Shown here: positions 1 through 9,770 of the stretch, piece after piece
Position numbering within the stretch: the stretch's first letter is position 1
Layout of the letters: each line of letters begins with the position of its first letter
The notes under the pieces: generated by a model
The model's database searches: none
What the model was told of the DNA's origin: nothing
Seen by the model: the letters and a program-made list of their open reading frames with translations, nothing else
NCBI GenBank assembly: GCA_017936665.1
Contig: JAGBFB010000036.1
Location: 1 to 41,051, forward strand
Source of the DNA: Spirochaetaceae bacterium
GTDB taxonomy: Bacteria > Spirochaetota > Spirochaetia > Treponematales > Treponemataceae
Direction of reading: 5' to 3'
Length of the DNA stretch: 41,051 nt
Translations under genes and position numbers: made by a program

Positions 1-271
1 ACTTCTGTTGTGTGTTCGCAAGTTGCGGCATACCAATGGTGAGTTTCATCTTTTGTCCAGTCTTTTGCAAACTTATGTGTATGTGCTAGTTTTGCAATTG
101 CTTCTGTTGCTGTATATCCACATACTGTACAACTTCTTTCTCTAGAACCTTCGGCTTCTTCTGTAGCTTCTTTGGTTACAGTCCAATCACCAAAGCTGTG
201 TTCTGCTTTATCGCTTACTTCTGTTGTGTGTTCGCAAGTTGCGGCATACCAATGGTGAGTTTCATCTTTTG
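1..271. repeat. In-frame 216-bp period repeat (55-bp identical copies at 1-55 and 217-271)
   Basis: Bases 1-55 and 217-271 are identical, and their 216-bp offset is exactly 72 codons. They lie inside the lipoprotein gene and encode the WYAATCEHTTE part of its repeat. Near-perfect DNA identity suggests recent duplication or ongoing recombination between units. Confidence 0.9.
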
Positions 272-404
272 ACCATGAATCAGAAAATTCGTGTTCGTGG
301 GCTAGTTCTGGGTCTTTACCTAGTTCTGGGTCTTTACATCCTACAAAACCGATAATGCTGATTGATACTAATATAATTAGTAAACTGAGATTGAGCTTTT
401 TCAT
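1..404 (-). CDS. Repeat-containing surface lipoprotein (5' part, runs off left edge)
   Basis: A minus-strand frame starts with ATG at 402-404, preceded by a good ribosome site AGGAGA (411-416) six bases upstream, and stays open to base 1. The protein begins MKKLNLSLLIILVSISIIG and then FVGC, a relaxed spirochaetal lipobox, so it should be lipidated at Cys22. A short duplicated KDPEL segment follows, then a 72-residue repeat containing DETHHWYAATCEH and SCTVCGY; a second copy starts before the edge. This His/Cys-rich repeat resembles a family common in surface proteins of treponemes and Firmicutes. The CxxC and CEH residues could bind a metal, but that is inference. The function is unknown and the 3' end is missing. 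Transcription is probably phase variable (see the poly-G promoter). Confidence 0.85.
   Translation of the reverse strand, partial: MKKLNLSLLIILVSISIIGFVGCKDPELGKDPELAHEHEFSDSWSKDETHHWYAATCEHTTEVSDKAEHSFGDWTVTKEATEEAEGSRERSCTVCGYTATEAIAKLAHTHKFAKDWTKDETHHWYAATCEHTTE
302..337. repeat. Tandem 18-bp duplication
   Basis: The unit ctagttctgggtctttac occurs twice head to tail (302-319 and 320-337). In the minus-strand lipoprotein gene it encodes KDPELG then KDPELA just after the lipidated Cys, lengthening the tether by six residues. The copies are identical, so slippage could change the copy number in frame. Confidence 0.9.
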
Positions 405-438
405 AAACTTTCTCCTTAAATTAAAAATTTCTAATTCT

Positions 439-466
439 AGCATATCACAATTCCCCCCCCCGTCAA
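439..466 (-). promoter_or_regulatory. Promoter with poly-G tract between -35 and -10
   Basis: On the minus strand the -35 is TTGACG (461-466) and the -10 is TATGCT (439-444), preceded by TGA as in an extended -10. The spacer is 16 bp and starts with eight of the nine G residues at 453-461. Adding or losing G would change the spacer length and hence promoter strength. It sits 35-62 bp upstream of the lipoprotein start codon. Poly-G tracts controlling promoters by slippage are known for T. pallidum tpr genes and Neisseria surface genes. Confidence 0.7.
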
Positions 467-469
467 CTA

Positions 470-752
470 GGTGTTTGTTTTTTTGTAATTTTATAGTAGA
501 TTTCATAAAAATTTTTCTTCAAAATTTATTTAAAATTCAATTTTCTCTTGATAATAAAGGTGTGCGGAAAATTTGTCATGCTGAACTTGATTCAGCATCT
601 ATATTGCAAAAGTGTCACAACCTCTACCTAAATAAAAGAACTGTGCAAAACCACAACCAGTGCAGAAAAAAAAACTGGTGTACACAATTTCGCTCGCTTT
701 ACCCAAACGAAAGAACTTTGCAAAAATAAATTAAATCAAAAACTTATTAGAC
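470..752. other. Non-coding intergenic region
   Basis: No credible gene was found between the lipoprotein promoter and the terminator at 753. An open frame across 355-729 on the plus strand has no ribosome site and includes the lipoprotein promoter, so it is not a gene. The region holds a palindrome (578-598), a small stem ACCAGT/ACTGGT (656-661 with 674-679), and two degenerate copies of a 30-bp stretch (about 621-651 and 694-726) sharing aaagaact-tgcaaaa. Confidence 0.6.
578..598. repeat. Intergenic palindrome ATGCTGAA-cttga-TTCAGCAT
   Basis: The 8-bp arms are perfect with a 5-base loop. The surrounding text, tcatgctgaacttgattcag, resembles short palindromic units scattered between genes in many bacterial genomes, often mistranslated as HAELDSASI. 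No second copy was found in this window. Confidence 0.6.
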
Positions 753-2973: not shown

Positions 2974-4203
2974 ATGGAAATGATTACTTATCTTGCAAAA
3001 GTTGGAGAACTAACTTTAAAAGGCGGAAATATAAGAGAATTTGAACGCCGACTTATTCAAAATACACAACTTTATCTTGAATCAATAAAATCAAAAGTAA
3101 CTTTGCGTGCTGGAAGAATGTACATTGATTGTGAGCCAAGTGGATGCGAAGCAGTTGAATTTGCACTTTCTCATCTTATTGGAATTACTGGTTGGGCAAA
3201 AACTAGAATTTGCGAAAAAAATATTGATTCTATAAAAGATGCTGTAATGCAAGAAGCCTTATTTGCAAAAGAACGGGGTGCAAAAACTTTTAAGATAGAA
3301 TCTCGTCGAAGCGAAAAAAATTTTCCATTAAATTCTTATGAACTTAGTTGCGAAGCTGCCAGTGATATTTGTGAACAAGATTTACTAAAAGTTGACGTTC
3401 ATAAACCAGATGTAACAATAAACATTGAACTTAGAGAACGCTGCTTTGTTTATAGCGACACCATAAAAGGTTGTAGAGGTTTACCAGTTGGGACTGGCGG
3501 AAAAGGACTTTTACTTTTATCAGGAGGAATAGACTCTCCAGTTGCAGGCTACAGAATGATGCGACGAGGTATGAAAGTAGAGTGTTGCTATTTTCATGCA
3601 TATCCTTACACCTCTGATGAAGCAAGAAAGAAAGTAGAAGATTTGGCACAAATTATCAGTCACTACGGATTAGAAACCCACGTAAACATAATTCCATTTA
3701 CTGATGTTCAAATGAAAATAAAAAAACTTGCTTCTGAAATGCCAGAAGCTCCAGATGGATTAAAAACAGAAAGTTATAGCACCCTACTTCTTAGAATGTG
3801 TATGATGAAAACAGCAAATTTGTTGGCAAAACAAATCCACAGTCAGTGTATCATCACAGGAGAAAGTTTAGGTCAGGTTGCAAGTCAAACTGTAGAAAAT
3901 ATGGAAGTTACCGAAAGTTGCTCTGATTTTTCACTTTTACGCCCATTAGTTGGAATGGATAAAGAAGAAATTGTAGAAACATCAAAATTTATTGGAACTT
4001 ACGAAACTTCTATCCTTCCTTACGAAGATTGTTGCGTTTTATTTTCACCCAAACATCCTGTAATTAGGGCAAAAGTTGAAGTTGCACAAGAACTCTACAA
4101 AGCAATGCAAGTTGATGATTTGATTCAAGAAGCATTTGAAAAAAGAGAAGTAAAACAGTTCTTGGTAAGAGACTTTGTTGAAGAAAATTACGGCTCAAAA
4201 TAA
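2974..4203 (+). CDS. thiI: tRNA 4-thiouridine / thiazole sulfurtransferase ThiI
   Basis: ThiI adenylates U8 of tRNA and adds sulfur to give 4-thiouridine; in some bacteria it also feeds thiazole synthesis. The N-terminal ferredoxin-like part begins YLAKVGELTLKGGN, a THUMP domain follows to about residue 160, and the PP-loop SGGIDS is at 183-188. The conserved catalytic Cys is in EDCCVLFSPKHP (C353/C354). The protein ends at about 409 residues without a C-terminal rhodanese domain, so persulfide must come from another protein. The start is uncertain: ATG at 2974 and ATG at 2980 both fit the family and neither has a Shine-Dalgarno site. A TATAAC at 2964-2969 lies only a few bases upstream. It converges on the next gene with an 8-bp gap. 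Confidence 0.93.
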   Translation: MEMITYLAKVGELTLKGGNIREFERRLIQNTQLYLESIKSKVTLRAGRMYIDCEPSGCEAVEFALSHLIGITGWAKTRICEKNIDSIKDAVMQEALFAKERGAKTFKIESRRSEKNFPLNSYELSCEAASDICEQDLLKVDVHKPDVTINIELRERCFVYSDTIKGCRGLPVGTGGKGLLLLSGGIDSPVAGYRMMRRGMKVECCYFHAYPYTSDEARKKVEDLAQIISHYGLETHVNIIPFTDVQMKIKKLASEMPEAPDGLKTESYSTLLLRMCMMKTANLLAKQIHSQCIITGESLGQVASQTVENMEVTESCSDFSLLRPLVGMDKEEIVETSKFIGTYETSILPYEDCCVLFSPKHPVIRAKVEVAQELYKAMQVDDLIQEAFEKREVKQFLVRDFVEENYGSK

Positions 4204-4211
4204 ATTTTTTT

Positions 4212-5345
4212 TTACTGAGCCATAATTCTATGAACAAATTCTGTGCAATCAGTGTTTAAATTAAGATTTTCAGTTTGTTTTTTCACACTAGAGTAATATT
4301 CGTCATCTGAAAATAATTTGAAAATTTTATTACTGATATCCTTCGGCTTTTGAATAAACCATCCTGCATTGTTTTCATAAACAAAGCGAACATTTCCTAA
4401 TTCTTGTCCGTGAATAAAAGTAGAAAGTATTACAGGCGTATTTGCTGCTAACATTTCTAAAACAGTAGAAGTTCCACCTTTAATAATTGCACAATCAGAT
4501 AATTTTACTAATTCATCGAGAAATGTAACAAAACCAAAAACAAACAAATTCATTTTAGGATGTACTTTTTTTAGCATTTCTAGTGTCTTACGAGTTTTTT
4601 TACCTCTACCACAAACAACAATAACTGAAAAATCAACCTTTTTTGCAACAAATTCAGTAATAATATTTAATGTTCCTGGCAAACCTTCTCCACCACCTGC
4701 AATTAAAACAACTCGTTTATCCTTAGGAATGCCGTATTTTTCTCGCAATTTATCAACATCATCATGATTTACTTTTTGAAGAAATTTTTCGTTTATCAGA
4801 AACGGCATAAATTCAATATCATCTGGGTTAAATTTACACTTTTTAATAGCAAAATCTTTTACTTGTTGAGAAGCAACATAAGTTTTTATTCCTTTTGTAA
4901 AAAACCATGTAGAAGGAGCTGTAAAAGGATCTGTAACAACAACAGAAAGATTTACTTTCTTTCCACTTTTTCTTATTGCAGTCTTTGCGGAAGGTGTTAA
5001 AGCAAAATGAAAAGAAATTATATCCGTTATATCATCCTTGATAATTTTTTCTTTTAAGTAATGGGACGTTTGTGGATTTAAGAATTTTTGTGTTAATTTT
5101 TGAATTGCACGTTTTTGTCCAAGTTCGTAAACAATCCGCCAAAGACCAGGTGTAACAGTACACATACTGTGATAACCTTTTTCAAAAACCAATTTTGAAA
5201 CAAAATTTGCCTTATCAAATCCGTTTACAAGCTGAACTGTTGCATCTGGATAAAGACGTTCAATATGAGATTTTAATACTTTAGCAGGAGCAAGATGTCC
5301 TCCACCTGTATTTAAGTACAATAACATAAAATTTCGTTTAGCCAT
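4212..5345 (-). CDS. MGDG-synthase-like glycolipid glycosyltransferase
   Basis: A family GT28-type glycosyltransferase, 377 residues, expected at the inner membrane surface where it transfers a sugar from a UDP-sugar to diacylglycerol. The N-terminal lobe has LNTGGGHLAP (11-20), the acceptor-side signature of monogalactosyldiacylglycerol synthases, followed by PGLWR. The C-terminal nucleotide-sugar lobe has GGGEGLPGT, VCGRGKKT, FVTFLDELVKLSDCAIIKGG and the ExLAANTPVIL segment. MurG is excluded by the MGDG-type N-terminus. Glycosyl-diacylglycerols are major treponemal membrane lipids. AAGGA about eight bases before ATG supports the start. The sugar (glucose or galactose) cannot be told. Confidence 0.85.
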   Translation of the reverse strand: MAKRNFMLLYLNTGGGHLAPAKVLKSHIERLYPDATVQLVNGFDKANFVSKLVFEKGYHSMCTVTPGLWRIVYELGQKRAIQKLTQKFLNPQTSHYLKEKIIKDDITDIISFHFALTPSAKTAIRKSGKKVNLSVVVTDPFTAPSTWFFTKGIKTYVASQQVKDFAIKKCKFNPDDIEFMPFLINEKFLQKVNHDDVDKLREKYGIPKDKRVVLIAGGGEGLPGTLNIITEFVAKKVDFSVIVVCGRGKKTRKTLEMLKKVHPKMNLFVFGFVTFLDELVKLSDCAIIKGGTSTVLEMLAANTPVILSTFIHGQELGNVRFVYENNAGWFIQKPKDISNKIFKLFSDDEYYSSVKKQTENLNLNTDCTEFVHRIMAQ

Positions 5346-5368
5346 AAAAAAAATCCTTACTAAAAGTT

Positions 5369-5397
5369 ATTATACACCAATTTTGCTACTTACACAA
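5369..5397 (-). promoter_or_regulatory. Promoter of the glycosyltransferase gene
   Basis: On the minus strand TTGTGT (5392-5397) and a perfect TATAAT (5369-5374) are 17 bp apart. They lie 24 bp upstream of the start codon at 5345, leaving room for a short leader with AAGGA. Confidence 0.65.
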
Positions 5398-5438
5398 AAA
5401 GAATTTTATTGTATACTAATTAATTATATATAATTTTT

Positions 5439-5455
5439 GTATCTTTTAAAGATAC
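5439..5455. promoter_or_regulatory. Perfect palindrome at the UDG transcription start (possible operator)
   Basis: GTATCTTT (5439-5446) and AAAGATAC (5448-5455) form a perfect inverted repeat around T5447. A TATAAT at 5429-5434 puts the expected transcription start near 5441, inside the palindrome. A repressor bound here would block initiation. No second copy was seen at other promoters in this window. Confidence 0.45.
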
Positions 5456-5467
5456 TTGGGATTAAAA

Positions 5468-6214
5468 ATGAATAAAACTGACAAAGAAAATCTATACAAT
5501 TTACTAGATATTAGTCAATCCTATTTTAATGGATTCAAAGATAATTCTGTACAAATGCCACTTTTTACAGATGATAAATCACAAGTGAAAAAGCATCAAG
5601 AAAATGTTTCAAAAGTTTCTTCAGGAATAACTTTAGAAACTTTAAACGAAAAAATATTAAAATGCGATAGATGCAAACTTTGTAGAGGAAGAAAACAAGC
5701 CGTTCCAGGAATTGGAGTTACCCATCCTCTAGTAATGGTTATTGGAGAAGGTCCTGGAGCCGATGAAGATGAACAAGGAATTCCATTTGTTGGAAAGGCT
5801 GGTCAACTTTTAGATAAAATGCTTATAGCTATTAATTTATCAAGAAATACAAATTGTTATATTGCAAACATCGTAAAATGTAGACCACCAGCAAATCGGG
5901 ACCCATTACCAGAGGAAAGTGCATCTTGTATGCCATTTTTAGAAACACAAATTCATATTTTAAAACCCACAATGATTTTAGCAATGGGAAGAGTTGCAGC
6001 TCACAATTTATTCAAAACAACAGAACCTGTTAGCAAAATGCGAGGAAAAATTTTTGATTATCATGGAATTCCTGCAATGATGACCTATCATCCTAGTGCA
6101 TTATTGCGCGATGAATCTTTGAAACGCCCTGCTTGGGAAGATTTAAAACTTTTTAGAAGTAGATTAGATGTTCGTTTACAAAACCTTGCAACAAACAAAA
6201 ATTCTATAAAGTAA
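5468..6214 (+). CDS. Type-4 (iron-sulfur) uracil-DNA glycosylase
   Basis: Removes uracil from DNA to start base excision repair. Motif A is GEGPGADEDEQGIPFVGKAG (93-112) and motif B is YHPSALLRD (207-215). The four iron-sulfur cysteines are C66-x2-C69 and C138-x15-C154. I start at ATG 5468 (248 residues) behind GGGA; a TTG 12 bases upstream is less likely. The first ~55 residues form an extension absent from the shortest family members and include QMPLF (29-33), which matches the sliding-clamp-binding pentapeptide. The gene is nine bases before priA, so the pair is probably one operon. The dut gene elsewhere in the window works on the same problem by keeping dUTP low. Confidence 0.92.
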   Translation: MNKTDKENLYNLLDISQSYFNGFKDNSVQMPLFTDDKSQVKKHQENVSKVSSGITLETLNEKILKCDRCKLCRGRKQAVPGIGVTHPLVMVIGEGPGADEDEQGIPFVGKAGQLLDKMLIAINLSRNTNCYIANIVKCRPPANRDPLPEESASCMPFLETQIHILKPTMILAMGRVAAHNLFKTTEPVSKMRGKIFDYHGIPAMMTYHPSALLRDESLKRPAWEDLKLFRSRLDVRLQNLATNKNSIK

Positions 6215-6223
6215 GGAAAAATT

Positions 6224-8245
6224 ATGTCTACGTTTTTGGAAGTATTAGTAAACTTGCCTCTTCCTCAAAGTTTTACTTACAAAAATTTAGATTCTCAAAA
6301 TAAAAAATACAAACCTACAACAGTTGGTATGAGATGTGAAATTTATTTTGGATCTCGTAAAATGATTGGATGTATAATAAATATTTCTAACACAATTCCT
6401 CCATCATGTACAGTTTCAGAAGAAAAAATAAAACCTATAATTAAAATAATTGATGATGAACCTATATTTTTTGAAGAACAAATAAAACTTTCTGAATGGA
6501 TTTCAAAATATTATTTATGTTCTCAAGGGGAAGCTTTATTTACAATGTTGCCTTCAGGAAAAAGAGAATCAAGTTTTTCTTCTCTTTCATTTGAAGAAGA
6601 TGAAAAAACTTTTACTCAAAAAATTTTATCAGAAGAACAAAAAAAAGCAATAGATGAAATCTTAAATCCTGTAAACAAAAAAATATTTAATTATTTATAT
6701 GGACCAACAGGAACAGGAAAAACAGAAGTATTTTTATCTTGTGCAGAAAAAATTTTAAATCAAGACAAAGGTGTTATTTATCTTGTTCCAGAAATTAGTT
6801 TAACTCACCAAGTAATTGAAGCAGTAATAAAACGTTTTGGAAATACAGTTGCAGTTTTACATTCAGGATTAACAGGAAGCCAAAAATTAAAAGAGTGGAT
6901 GCGAATTATTAATCGTGAAGCTAAAATTGTAATTGGAGCAAGAAGTGGAATTTTTGCTCCTGTTCCAAATTTAGGATTAATAATCATTGATGAAGAACAT
7001 GATGGTTCATATAAATCAGGAACAACTCCTCGATACCACGCAAGACAAGTTGCTATGAGAATTTGTACAGACAAAAAAATTCCGTTAATTATGGGAAGTG
7101 CAACTCCTTCAGTGGAAGCATGGAAGTTGATGAAAGAAAATAAAATACAAACTCACACGTTATCAAAAAGATTAGCAGGAGGAGCAATACCAAAAGTAGA
7201 AATTATTAATCTTTCAGAAAAATCAGAAGATGGAAGAAAAACAGAAGGTTGTATTTCACCTAAACTTGAAGATGAAATCAGAAATACTTTACAGGAAAAA
7301 AAACAAACAATTTTATTTTTAAATCGTAGAGGATTTTCACATTTTTTTAAATGTTCATCTTGCGGATTTGAGTTAAAATGTAAAAATTGTTCAGTTTCAC
7401 TTACTTATCATAAAACACAAAAAAAATTAATTTGCCATTATTGTGGATGGCAATTAAATCCACCAACACAATGTCCAGAATGTAAATCTTTAGATGTTGG
7501 TTACTTTGGATTTGGAACAGAATTTATTGAAAGTGAAGTTAAAGCAAAATTTCCAAACGCAGTAGTAGAAAGAATTGATACAGACAATTTATCATCACAA
7601 AAAGAATTACAAGAAAAATTAGATTTATTTAGAAATAATAAAATTGATATTTTACTTGGTACACAAATGGTTGCAAAAGGATTAAACTTTCCTAATTTAA
7701 AACTTGTTGGTGTAATTATGGCTGACACAGGATTACATCTTCCTGACTTTAGAGCTTCAGAAAGAACATTCTCTTTGATTGTTCAAGTTGCAGGACGTGC
7801 TGGAAGATTTTTTCCTGACGGAAAAGTAATTGTTCAAAGTTATTCTCCAAACAGAAGCCCTATATATTACGCATGTAAAAATCGCATAGAAGAATTTTAT
7901 GATGAAGAATTACAGCAAAGAAAAATTTTAGACTTTCCACCATTTTCAAGATTAATAAGATTAGTATTTCGTTCTCCAATAAAAGAAGCTTCTGAGTTAG
8001 CAGCAAACTCTGCTGCTGAAATTTTAGAATCATTTAGAGAAAAATATAATTATGACGATTACGAAATTTTAGGTCCTAGTGAATGTCCTTTATCAAAGAT
8101 TGCAGCAAATTATAGGAATCAAATTATTTTAAGATCTGATAGTATAAAAACTATTCAATCAGTTACTGCAAGATTTATTTACAACTATAAAAACAAACAA
8201 GGTGTTTATCTTGAAGTAGATGTTGACCCTACAAATTTGTTATAA
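6224..8245 (+). CDS. priA: Primosomal protein N', replication restart helicase PriA
   Basis: PriA recognises abandoned forks and reloads the replicative helicase. The 673 residues comprise an N-terminal DNA-binding region (1-110), a helicase core with Walker A YGPTGTGKT (about 158-166) and DEEH Walker B, and a zinc region with eight Cys (CSSCGFELKCKNC and CHYCG with CPECKS, about 376-424) inserted before helicase lobe 2. LGTQMVAKGLNFPNL and QVAGRAGR are typical PriA helicase motifs. The start ATG has AAGG upstream. It follows the UDG gene by nine bases and ends four bases from the convergent DUF4129-like gene. Confidence 0.96.
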   Translation: MSTFLEVLVNLPLPQSFTYKNLDSQNKKYKPTTVGMRCEIYFGSRKMIGCIINISNTIPPSCTVSEEKIKPIIKIIDDEPIFFEEQIKLSEWISKYYLCSQGEALFTMLPSGKRESSFSSLSFEEDEKTFTQKILSEEQKKAIDEILNPVNKKIFNYLYGPTGTGKTEVFLSCAEKILNQDKGVIYLVPEISLTHQVIEAVIKRFGNTVAVLHSGLTGSQKLKEWMRIINREAKIVIGARSGIFAPVPNLGLIIIDEEHDGSYKSGTTPRYHARQVAMRICTDKKIPLIMGSATPSVEAWKLMKENKIQTHTLSKRLAGGAIPKVEIINLSEKSEDGRKTEGCISPKLEDEIRNTLQEKKQTILFLNRRGFSHFFKCSSCGFELKCKNCSVSLTYHKTQKKLICHYCGWQLNPPTQCPECKSLDVGYFGFGTEFIESEVKAKFPNAVVERIDTDNLSSQKELQEKLDLFRNNKIDILLGTQMVAKGLNFPNLKLVGVIMADTGLHLPDFRASERTFSLIVQVAGRAGRFFPDGKVIVQSYSPNRSPIYYACKNRIEEFYDEELQQRKILDFPPFSRLIRLVFRSPIKEASELAANSAAEILESFREKYNYDDYEILGPSECPLSKIAANYRNQIILRSDSIKTIQSVTARFIYNYKNKQGVYLEVDVDPTNLL

Positions 8246-8249
8246 AAAA

Positions 8250-9770
8250 TTAATTAGCACAAAATCTTTCATAACTATTTTTGTATTCAATTTTTTCTTC
8301 TTCCGAAAGACATTCTTTAGAATACAAAGCTTTTTCAAATAAAAATCCAAGTTGCATAAGAATATCTTTTTTATCAAAAAATTTATCACACAATATATTA
8401 ATATAATTCATAGGCGTCATTGATTCAGTAAGTAAAATTCCATTTTCTTCGCCAAAAGAAACAAGTTTAAAAAATATTTTTGCAAACTCACCAATTTCTT
8501 TTTTCTTTTCTTTTGACATAGTTTCTTTTGTAGTCTTTTTAATAAACTCAGAATAAAGTTTTTTTTCTGAATGAATTTTTATTCCATTGTTATTTTTTAT
8601 TTTAAACAAATTACAAATAAAGTCTTTAAAATTATTTACAAAAGATTTAAGAATTTTTATCAATTTTTTTTCTTTAATAAAATTTCTAAACTTTTTACTA
8701 AACAATGGTAAAAATAAAAACAAAATAAAAAGAATCGAAACAACAGAAATAATTATGATATTTACAATTTTATTAAAATTATCGATATTATCTGTATTGT
8801 TTACATACATTTGTCTTCTATCTTCGTCAGTTATTCCACTATCTCCCATTGAAGGAAGTAACACATCAGGTAATTCTTCGTGCATTGTTTTATGTAATTC
8901 ATTTGAACCATCAGGAAATAAATTTGAAAAAATAGAAATAATTTTTACAATGAAAGATTCATCAAACTGAAATTGAAAATTTTTATCGATTATTTTTTTT
9001 CCAGGAGAAATTGTAATTGCAATCAAAAAACACATAGCAAGAATTACAAAAACAGCAATAAGCCTTTTCAATGCAAATTGAAAAATTGAAACAATTCCCA
9101 TTCCACCAAAACGTAATTCGTCTAAAGAATTTTTTATGTATGCAACTAAAAAGAAATGCATACAAATCATTGAAATAAAAAAACAAATACTTCTTAAAGA
9201 AAATTTATATGAATTCAACCAAGAAATTAAAATTATAAACGCAATAAAATAAATGAAAACTAAAGAAATTGTTTTTAAACTTCTAATTGCATTTACAGAT
9301 TTTTCCATTAAAACTTCATCTTCTCTTAATGTGCGATAAAGTGATTCTCCAGATTTTCCTTCTGAAATTTCTAAAAAATAATTCCACACAAAAAAAGTAC
9401 TTTCAAAATAAAAATCTAAAAGCCAATATATAAAATTAATAAATAAAATATAAAATGATTTTCCATCAAGAATGAATCTTTGAGGAAATGATTTTTTATT
9501 AAAAATAACTAAAATTAAGTAAACAAAAATTAAAGCAAAAATTACGATTCTTGTTTTTGAAACATTTTTTAATTTTAAAACATCAATAACTGAAAAAGTT
9601 AGAGTTGAAAAAAATAAAGAAACAAATGAAATCAAAATAAATTTTAAATCAAAACTAAATGTATTTGGCAATATTTCTGATAAAAAAGAATGACAAGTAA
9701 AAACTAAAAACAGAGGAATGAAAACTGAAATAAATTTTTGTATAAAAACATATTTAAAATTTATTTTCAT
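8250..9770 (-). CDS. Multi-spanning membrane protein with DUF4129-like C-terminus
   Basis: No enzyme motif was recognised. About seven hydrophobic spans occupy residues 10-260, an exported loop rich in Asp/Asn follows, another span lies near 340-360, and a Lys-rich cytoplasmic tail ends the 506 residues. The tail (MTPMNYINIL ... LFEKALYSKECLSEEE) resembles the DUF4129 domain found at the C-terminus of transglutaminase-like membrane proteins that accompany MoxR and DUF58. The transglutaminase domain itself is absent. The start overlaps the DUF58 stop by ATGA, so translation is coupled. Context points to a MoxR-linked envelope assembly or stress system. The DUF4129 assignment is by pattern only. 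Confidence 0.7.
   Translation of the reverse strand: MKINFKYVFIQKFISVFIPLFLVFTCHSFLSEILPNTFSFDLKFILISFVSLFFSTLTFSVIDVLKLKNVSKTRIVIFALIFVYLILVIFNKKSFPQRFILDGKSFYILFINFIYWLLDFYFESTFFVWNYFLEISEGKSGESLYRTLREDEVLMEKSVNAIRSLKTISLVFIYFIAFIILISWLNSYKFSLRSICFFISMICMHFFLVAYIKNSLDELRFGGMGIVSIFQFALKRLIAVFVILAMCFLIAITISPGKKIIDKNFQFQFDESFIVKIISIFSNLFPDGSNELHKTMHEELPDVLLPSMGDSGITDEDRRQMYVNNTDNIDNFNKIVNIIIISVVSILFILFLFLPLFSKKFRNFIKEKKLIKILKSFVNNFKDFICNLFKIKNNNGIKIHSEKKLYSEFIKKTTKETMSKEKKKEIGEFAKIFFKLVSFGEENGILLTESMTPMNYINILCDKFFDKKDILMQLGFLFEKALYSKECLSEEEKIEYKNSYERFCAN

Follow-up and report, generated by a model that had tools for sequence, protein, structure and literature searches.

Transcriptional switching by poly-G tracts located between the -35 and -10 elements has so far been known gene by gene in pathogens. 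According to one paper (PMC7864442), a poly-G tract in the promoter spacer sets transcription of the Treponema pallidum gene tp0126, which encodes an OmpW homologue and is transcribed best at 17 nucleotides, and the length of a similarly located tract sets transcription of porA in Neisseria meningitidis. The same paper indicates that eight or fewer guanines permit transcription of tprE, tprG and tprJ. Among clones of T. pallidum, 24 of 46 poly-G/C tracts of eight or more nucleotides varied (PMC10013896), and a 2025 review counts T. pallidum among the species with large repeat-based repertoires (PMC11868660). Here we describe a G9 tract upstream of a lipoprotein gene on contig JAGBFB010000036.1 of a Spirochaetaceae bacterium, a gut-type Treponema. 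This tract is likely to act as a slipped-strand switch for phase variation, seated in the spacer of a sigma-70-type promoter with an extended -10 element, and at least 19 further promoters in the genome belong to the same set. Thus, what has been a property of single genes would here be a uniform genome-wide class aimed solely at lipoproteins. All coordinates refer to the window, which is the whole stretch of DNA analysed (41 kb, about 30% GC), and the promoter is read on its minus strand.

The complete layout of the promoter and leader is CCTAG-TTGACG-(G8)-AATTGTGA-TATGCT-AGAATTAGAAATTTTTAATTT-AAGGAG-AAAGTTT-ATG, with the ATG start codon at 404-402. A CCTAG box (467..471), part of a CCTA[C/G] element conserved across the promoter family, is located directly upstream of TTGAC. 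The -35 hexamer TTGACG (461..466) was read from the sequence, and its last base is also the first guanine of the tract (453..461, C9 on the plus strand), which abuts the -35 element. The 16-bp spacer (445..460) is made up of the eight further guanines and the linker, and was delimited from the sequence and a leave-one-out profile of the family. The same type of profile identifies the extended -10 element TGA-TATGCT (439..447), with TG at 447-446 and TATGCT at 444-439, the latter beginning 8 nucleotides past the end of the tract. Transcription is predicted to start at 432..433, a position that derives solely from the distance to the -10 element, and the Shine-Dalgarno sequence AAGGAG (412..417) was read from the sequence. 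A first-pass annotation of this DNA had already placed the tract between TTGACG and TGA-TATGCT, with a 16-bp spacer and in front of a lipoprotein gene, and each of these elements was found again when the sequence was checked. It had also called the tract the only long G/C homopolymer noticed in the window, and indeed there is no other G/C run of seven or more. However, a loose promoter match (TTGACR-N15..18-TAnnnT) is unremarkable by itself, as there are two in the window versus 5.5 expected by shuffling. Thus, the case rests on recurrence, with 20 copies that are all found in front of lipoprotein genes.

Pattern searches across the genome, which has a GC content of about 30%, revealed 35 runs of G8 or longer. 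Nineteen of these, together with one G7 run, share a single promoter design: CCTA[C/G] (with variants), TTGAC, G7 to G10, a linker of 7-9 bases and TAnnnT. The -35 element is TTGACG in 18 copies, whereas in the two others (TTGACC and TTGACT) a C or T precedes the guanines. Conservation extends into the upstream box, where the T is present in 19 of 20 promoters, the A in all 20, and a C or G adjoins TTGAC in all 20. Of the 14 occurrences of the string CCTASTTGAC in the genome, 13 are at promoters of the set and one is in coding sequence. Spacers of 15, 16 and 17 bp are found in 4, 14 and 2 promoters, respectively.

The gene association is uniform. The next long open reading frame (ORF) carries a lipoprotein-type signal, as judged by lipobox rules, in 20 of 20 cases (18 with a strict lipobox and two with the looser NLSC and VCSC), against a background of 2 of 41 long ORFs in the window that pass a similar rule. 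Pfam matches among the 20 proteins include FGE-sulfatase (3), Lipocalin_4 (2), OmpA, CotH, TRL, List_Bact_rpt and DUF6567, and several proteins have no match; by this measure they are mostly unrelated to one another. By our own tally, 27 of the 35 G8+ runs are at or inside lipoprotein genes, and approximately seven lipoprotein genes have a poly-G run in the reading frame or leader. In addition, stem-loops of differing sequence are present in the 5' leaders of nine promoters (L152, L153, L155, L158, L159, L160, L162, L164 and L168). They are located near the predicted 5' end of the transcript, often begin at +1 and finish before the Shine-Dalgarno sequence. A stem-loop that starts at the predicted +1 in several promoters gives mild support to the promoter calls, and these structures may stabilise the mRNA.

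The closest described counterpart is tp0126, where poly-G is likewise located between the -35 and -10 elements of a treponemal envelope protein gene and spacing is the proposed switch. However, tp0126 is a single outer membrane protein gene with an optimum of 17 nucleotides, whereas the set described here has at least 20 lipoprotein genes that share a CCTA[C/G] box and have spacers clustering around 16 bp. The porA tract occupies the same position, but it precedes one porin gene in another phylum and is not accompanied by a common upstream box or gene set. At the window promoter, as at tp0126 and porA, the tract is between the two elements, the spacing is within the 15-18 bp over which a single base counts (16 here, and 15-17 in 20 of 20) and the cargo is an envelope or surface protein, with a lipoprotein-type signal in 20 of 20 and putative surface exposure. 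The tprE, tprG, tprJ and tprL genes of T. pallidum resemble the present set in that they are treponemal surface genes with a poly-G tract of variable length at the promoter, but here the tract is in the spacer; an arrangement of the tprL type, in which the tract overlaps the -10 element and spacing is unchanged, was not found at the window promoter. Thus, of the parallels that the first-pass annotation had drawn, the one to Neisseria fits well for porA, whereas the one to the tpr genes is weaker and tp0126 provides the exact treponemal match (PMC7864442).

A further parallel is the Vlp system of Mycoplasma hyorhinis. The homopolymer of the Vlp genes is a poly-A tract located in the promoter spacer. 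The Vlp genes form a clustered paralogous family, whereas the lipoproteins considered here are dispersed, mostly unrelated and preceded by poly-G. In this system several lipoproteins of variable size are switched on and off in combination, as cited in a review (PMC11868660). Homopolymer counts have been tabulated per genome for bovine and human treponemes, and the available text of that work describes no comparable promoter set (PMC8049484). Likewise, we found no report of such a promoter set in a non-pallidum treponeme in the open-licence literature. The kind of switch is already known, and what is new is the scale, the uniform design and the exclusive lipoprotein cargo.

There are several indications that tract length may change. 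The promoters of two tandem lipoprotein genes on contig C18 match without a difference over the 26 bp that precede the tract and the 91 bp that follow it, yet one carries G8 and the other G9. Similarly, the tract is G9 in a lipoprotein promoter of relative G211 and G8 in its orthologue in relative G265. On contigs C1, C13 and C7, the frame of lipoprotein ORFs breaks precisely at a poly-G run and the remainder is open in another frame, whereas other lipoprotein genes on C7, C17 and C29 are in frame across their run. The broken ORFs are very large and their runs are G8 to G10 (L302 on G000:C1, L303 on G000:C13 and L304 at G000:C7:174000-182600); we regard them as candidates for translational phase variation in an off state.

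Total spacing also appears to be constrained. When the -10 elements are placed by family alignment, the lengths of tract and linker are anticorrelated across the 20 promoters (r -0.61, permutation p 0.006). Together with the 19 sister promoters, the G8/G9 pair and the contrast between in-frame and frame-broken genes, this compensation strengthens the phase-variation reading that the first-pass annotation had proposed. The annotation had further taken G10, and hence a 17-bp spacer, as optimal; since the spacers of the family cluster at 16 bp, the high state here may be either 16 or 17 bp.

Probably, when a guanine is gained or lost at replication, the distance between the -35 and -10 elements shifts from its present 16 bp, and transcription of the repeat-bearing TvpA-like lipoprotein would then rise or fall. 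Independent flips at 20 or more promoters would yield a combinatorially varied lipoprotein coat, to which the approximately seven genes with internal or leader tracts would add. We infer that slippage is ongoing in the cell, and the resulting variation might serve bet-hedging with respect to immunity, phages or niches. A set of this kind suggests that the syphilis agent is not the sole treponeme to vary its coat combinatorially. The set also offers 20 natural replicates for mapping spacer length to expression, and its uniform design means that the switches could be easily scored in metagenome reads.

Several points weigh against this interpretation. The compensation between tract and linker hinges on where the -10 element is placed: with a naive consensus picker p is 0.23, and with the leave-one-out profile, which has one clear misplacement, p is 0.054. 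The naive picker misplaced two promoters, including that of the window, and for this assignment we used the leave-one-out profile and the family alignment in its place. Clustering at 16 bp, with no broad spread, could reflect selection for one fixed length. Furthermore, the conserved box upstream of the -35 element is superfluous for a pure spacer switch, which leaves CCTA[C/G] unexplained. Homopolymer assembly error could mimic a G8/G9 difference or a frame break at any single place, and switching is inferred from the assembled sequence of one genome and its relatives.

The box also figures in the rival explanation that survives best, according to which phase variation is real but acts through a regulator, in the way suggested for a CRP homologue at T. 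pallidum tprE, tprG and tprJ, or through -35 contact, rather than through the spacing seen by RNA polymerase. The first guanine is part of the -35 hexamer, and CRP effects are reported for tpr promoters in PMC7864442. However, the tract is located between the -35 and -10 elements and the overall distance stays within 15-17, for which a spacer effect is the simplest account, as for tp0126 and porA. We consider this route unlikely, although it fares better than the proposal that the guanines are an invariant component of a promoter or of a regulator-binding site. There, a dedicated factor would read CCTA[C/G]TTGAC-Gn and co-regulate the set, and the guanines would be retained for binding and not for slippage. 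Conservation of the box far beyond the needs of a sigma-70 promoter and the confinement of tracts to 7-10 guanines both favour a fixed site, but the two duplicated promoters differ in tract length, as do the orthologous ones, it is the total spacing that is compensated, and poly-G is also present inside lipoprotein reading frames where a promoter role is unlikely; we judge it improbable. Finally, a chance homopolymer or assembly artefact has almost no likelihood, even though homopolymers are error-prone and the window gene stops at a contig break, as a C8 string is expected a mean of only 0.05 times per 41 kb in dinucleotide-keeping shuffles and the arrangement is found 20 times, always in front of the same class of gene, while a reversed-pattern control finds none in the genome.

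The reading of the tract as a slipped-strand spacer switch also invites a bolder view. The motif CCTA[C/G]TTGAC-Gn might define a dedicated promoter class, maybe with its own regulator, by which lipoprotein genes are singled out for random switching; this would amount to a combinatorial code of about 20 bits. This code would be apparently private to the species among the relatives searched, and would operate beside a retroelement that diversifies another lipoprotein. We offer this view tentatively, as a somewhat doubtful possibility.

The distribution of the motif is narrow. A strict version, CTASTTGACGGGGGG, has 14 matches in the source genome and none in 273 other genomes of the family, and no match among the 84,980 species scanned, a set from which records of this or very near genomes are possibly absent. 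A looser version, TTGACGGGGGGG, has 18 matches here versus 0-3 per genome in 79 others that are at least 95% complete, which sum to 18; the reversed looser pattern, used as the control, has 4 matches in those 79 genomes. A few of the looser matches in relatives also resemble promoters of lipoprotein or envelope genes, and these promoter-like matches suggest that the mechanism probably predates the expansion of the set. The nearest relatives found are Treponema/Spirochaetaceae metagenome genomes, mostly from animal gut. Poly-G runs in two congeners (genomes 74% and 87% complete) include none of this promoter type. Congeners also have no clear orthologues of the N-terminal part of the window protein or of the OmpA-like lipoprotein, and therefore the histories of these promoters could not be traced. 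Nine matches to CCTASTTGACGGGGGG in viral contigs, eight of them mutually similar in sequence, were rejected as unrelated: all are exactly G6 and none has the -10 pattern. In two relatives (L290 in G237 and L285 in G265), a conserved sugar-isomerase-like gene (MAQIINLPTFSDERGSLTVIEK...) is preceded by a poly-G run that follows TTGAC, and may be a phase-variable glycan gene.

The gene behind the window promoter (3..404, minus strand) is represented by its first 134 codons (MKKLNLSLLIILVSISIIGFVGC...), which include repeats, and it runs off the contig and continues on contig C17. An exact 138-bp overlap joins the two parts into a protein of 493 amino acids. An internal coding repeat at 1..54, also on the minus strand, has a second copy at about 211-264. 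The overlap and the contig break fall inside this repeat, and thus the repeat number of the gene is uncertain. The protein has the lipoprotein signal FVGC, and repeats rich in cysteine and histidine. Its C-terminal domain is of the FGE-sulfatase/C-type-lectin-like type (FGE-sulfatase, PF03781, E 1.3e-42), and the best match of this domain in the Protein Data Bank is the variable protein TvpA of Treponema denticola (2y3c, E 3.8e-33).

TvpA is diversified by a retroelement, whereas variation of the window protein, despite its TvpA-like C-terminal domain, would be on/off. A retroelement origin for variability of the window gene was looked for and not found: neither of the genome's two reverse-transcriptase loci contains a significant match to the part of the gene on C17. 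The sole confirmed retroelement target in the genome is another gene, located on C40. There, a diversity-generating retroelement (L269, G000:C40:40000-49263, positions 3671-9116, minus strand) comprises a reverse transcriptase, a template repeat and a possible accessory gene (131 amino acids). Its target is a lipoprotein of 1097 amino acids with two variable repeats, which share 86% and 82% identity with the template and differ from it mostly at template adenines.

Two further elements are found near the window promoter. A palindrome resembling an interspersed repeat (GTCATGCTGAACTTGATTCAGCATCT) is located at 575-600, and L061 and L139 have similar strings close to their poly-G runs. A terminator-like inverted repeat (AAAAAAAACAAACTG...CAGTTTGTTTTTTTT) at 745-822 is positioned between the lipoprotein promoter and an acyl-CoA-synthetase-like gene.
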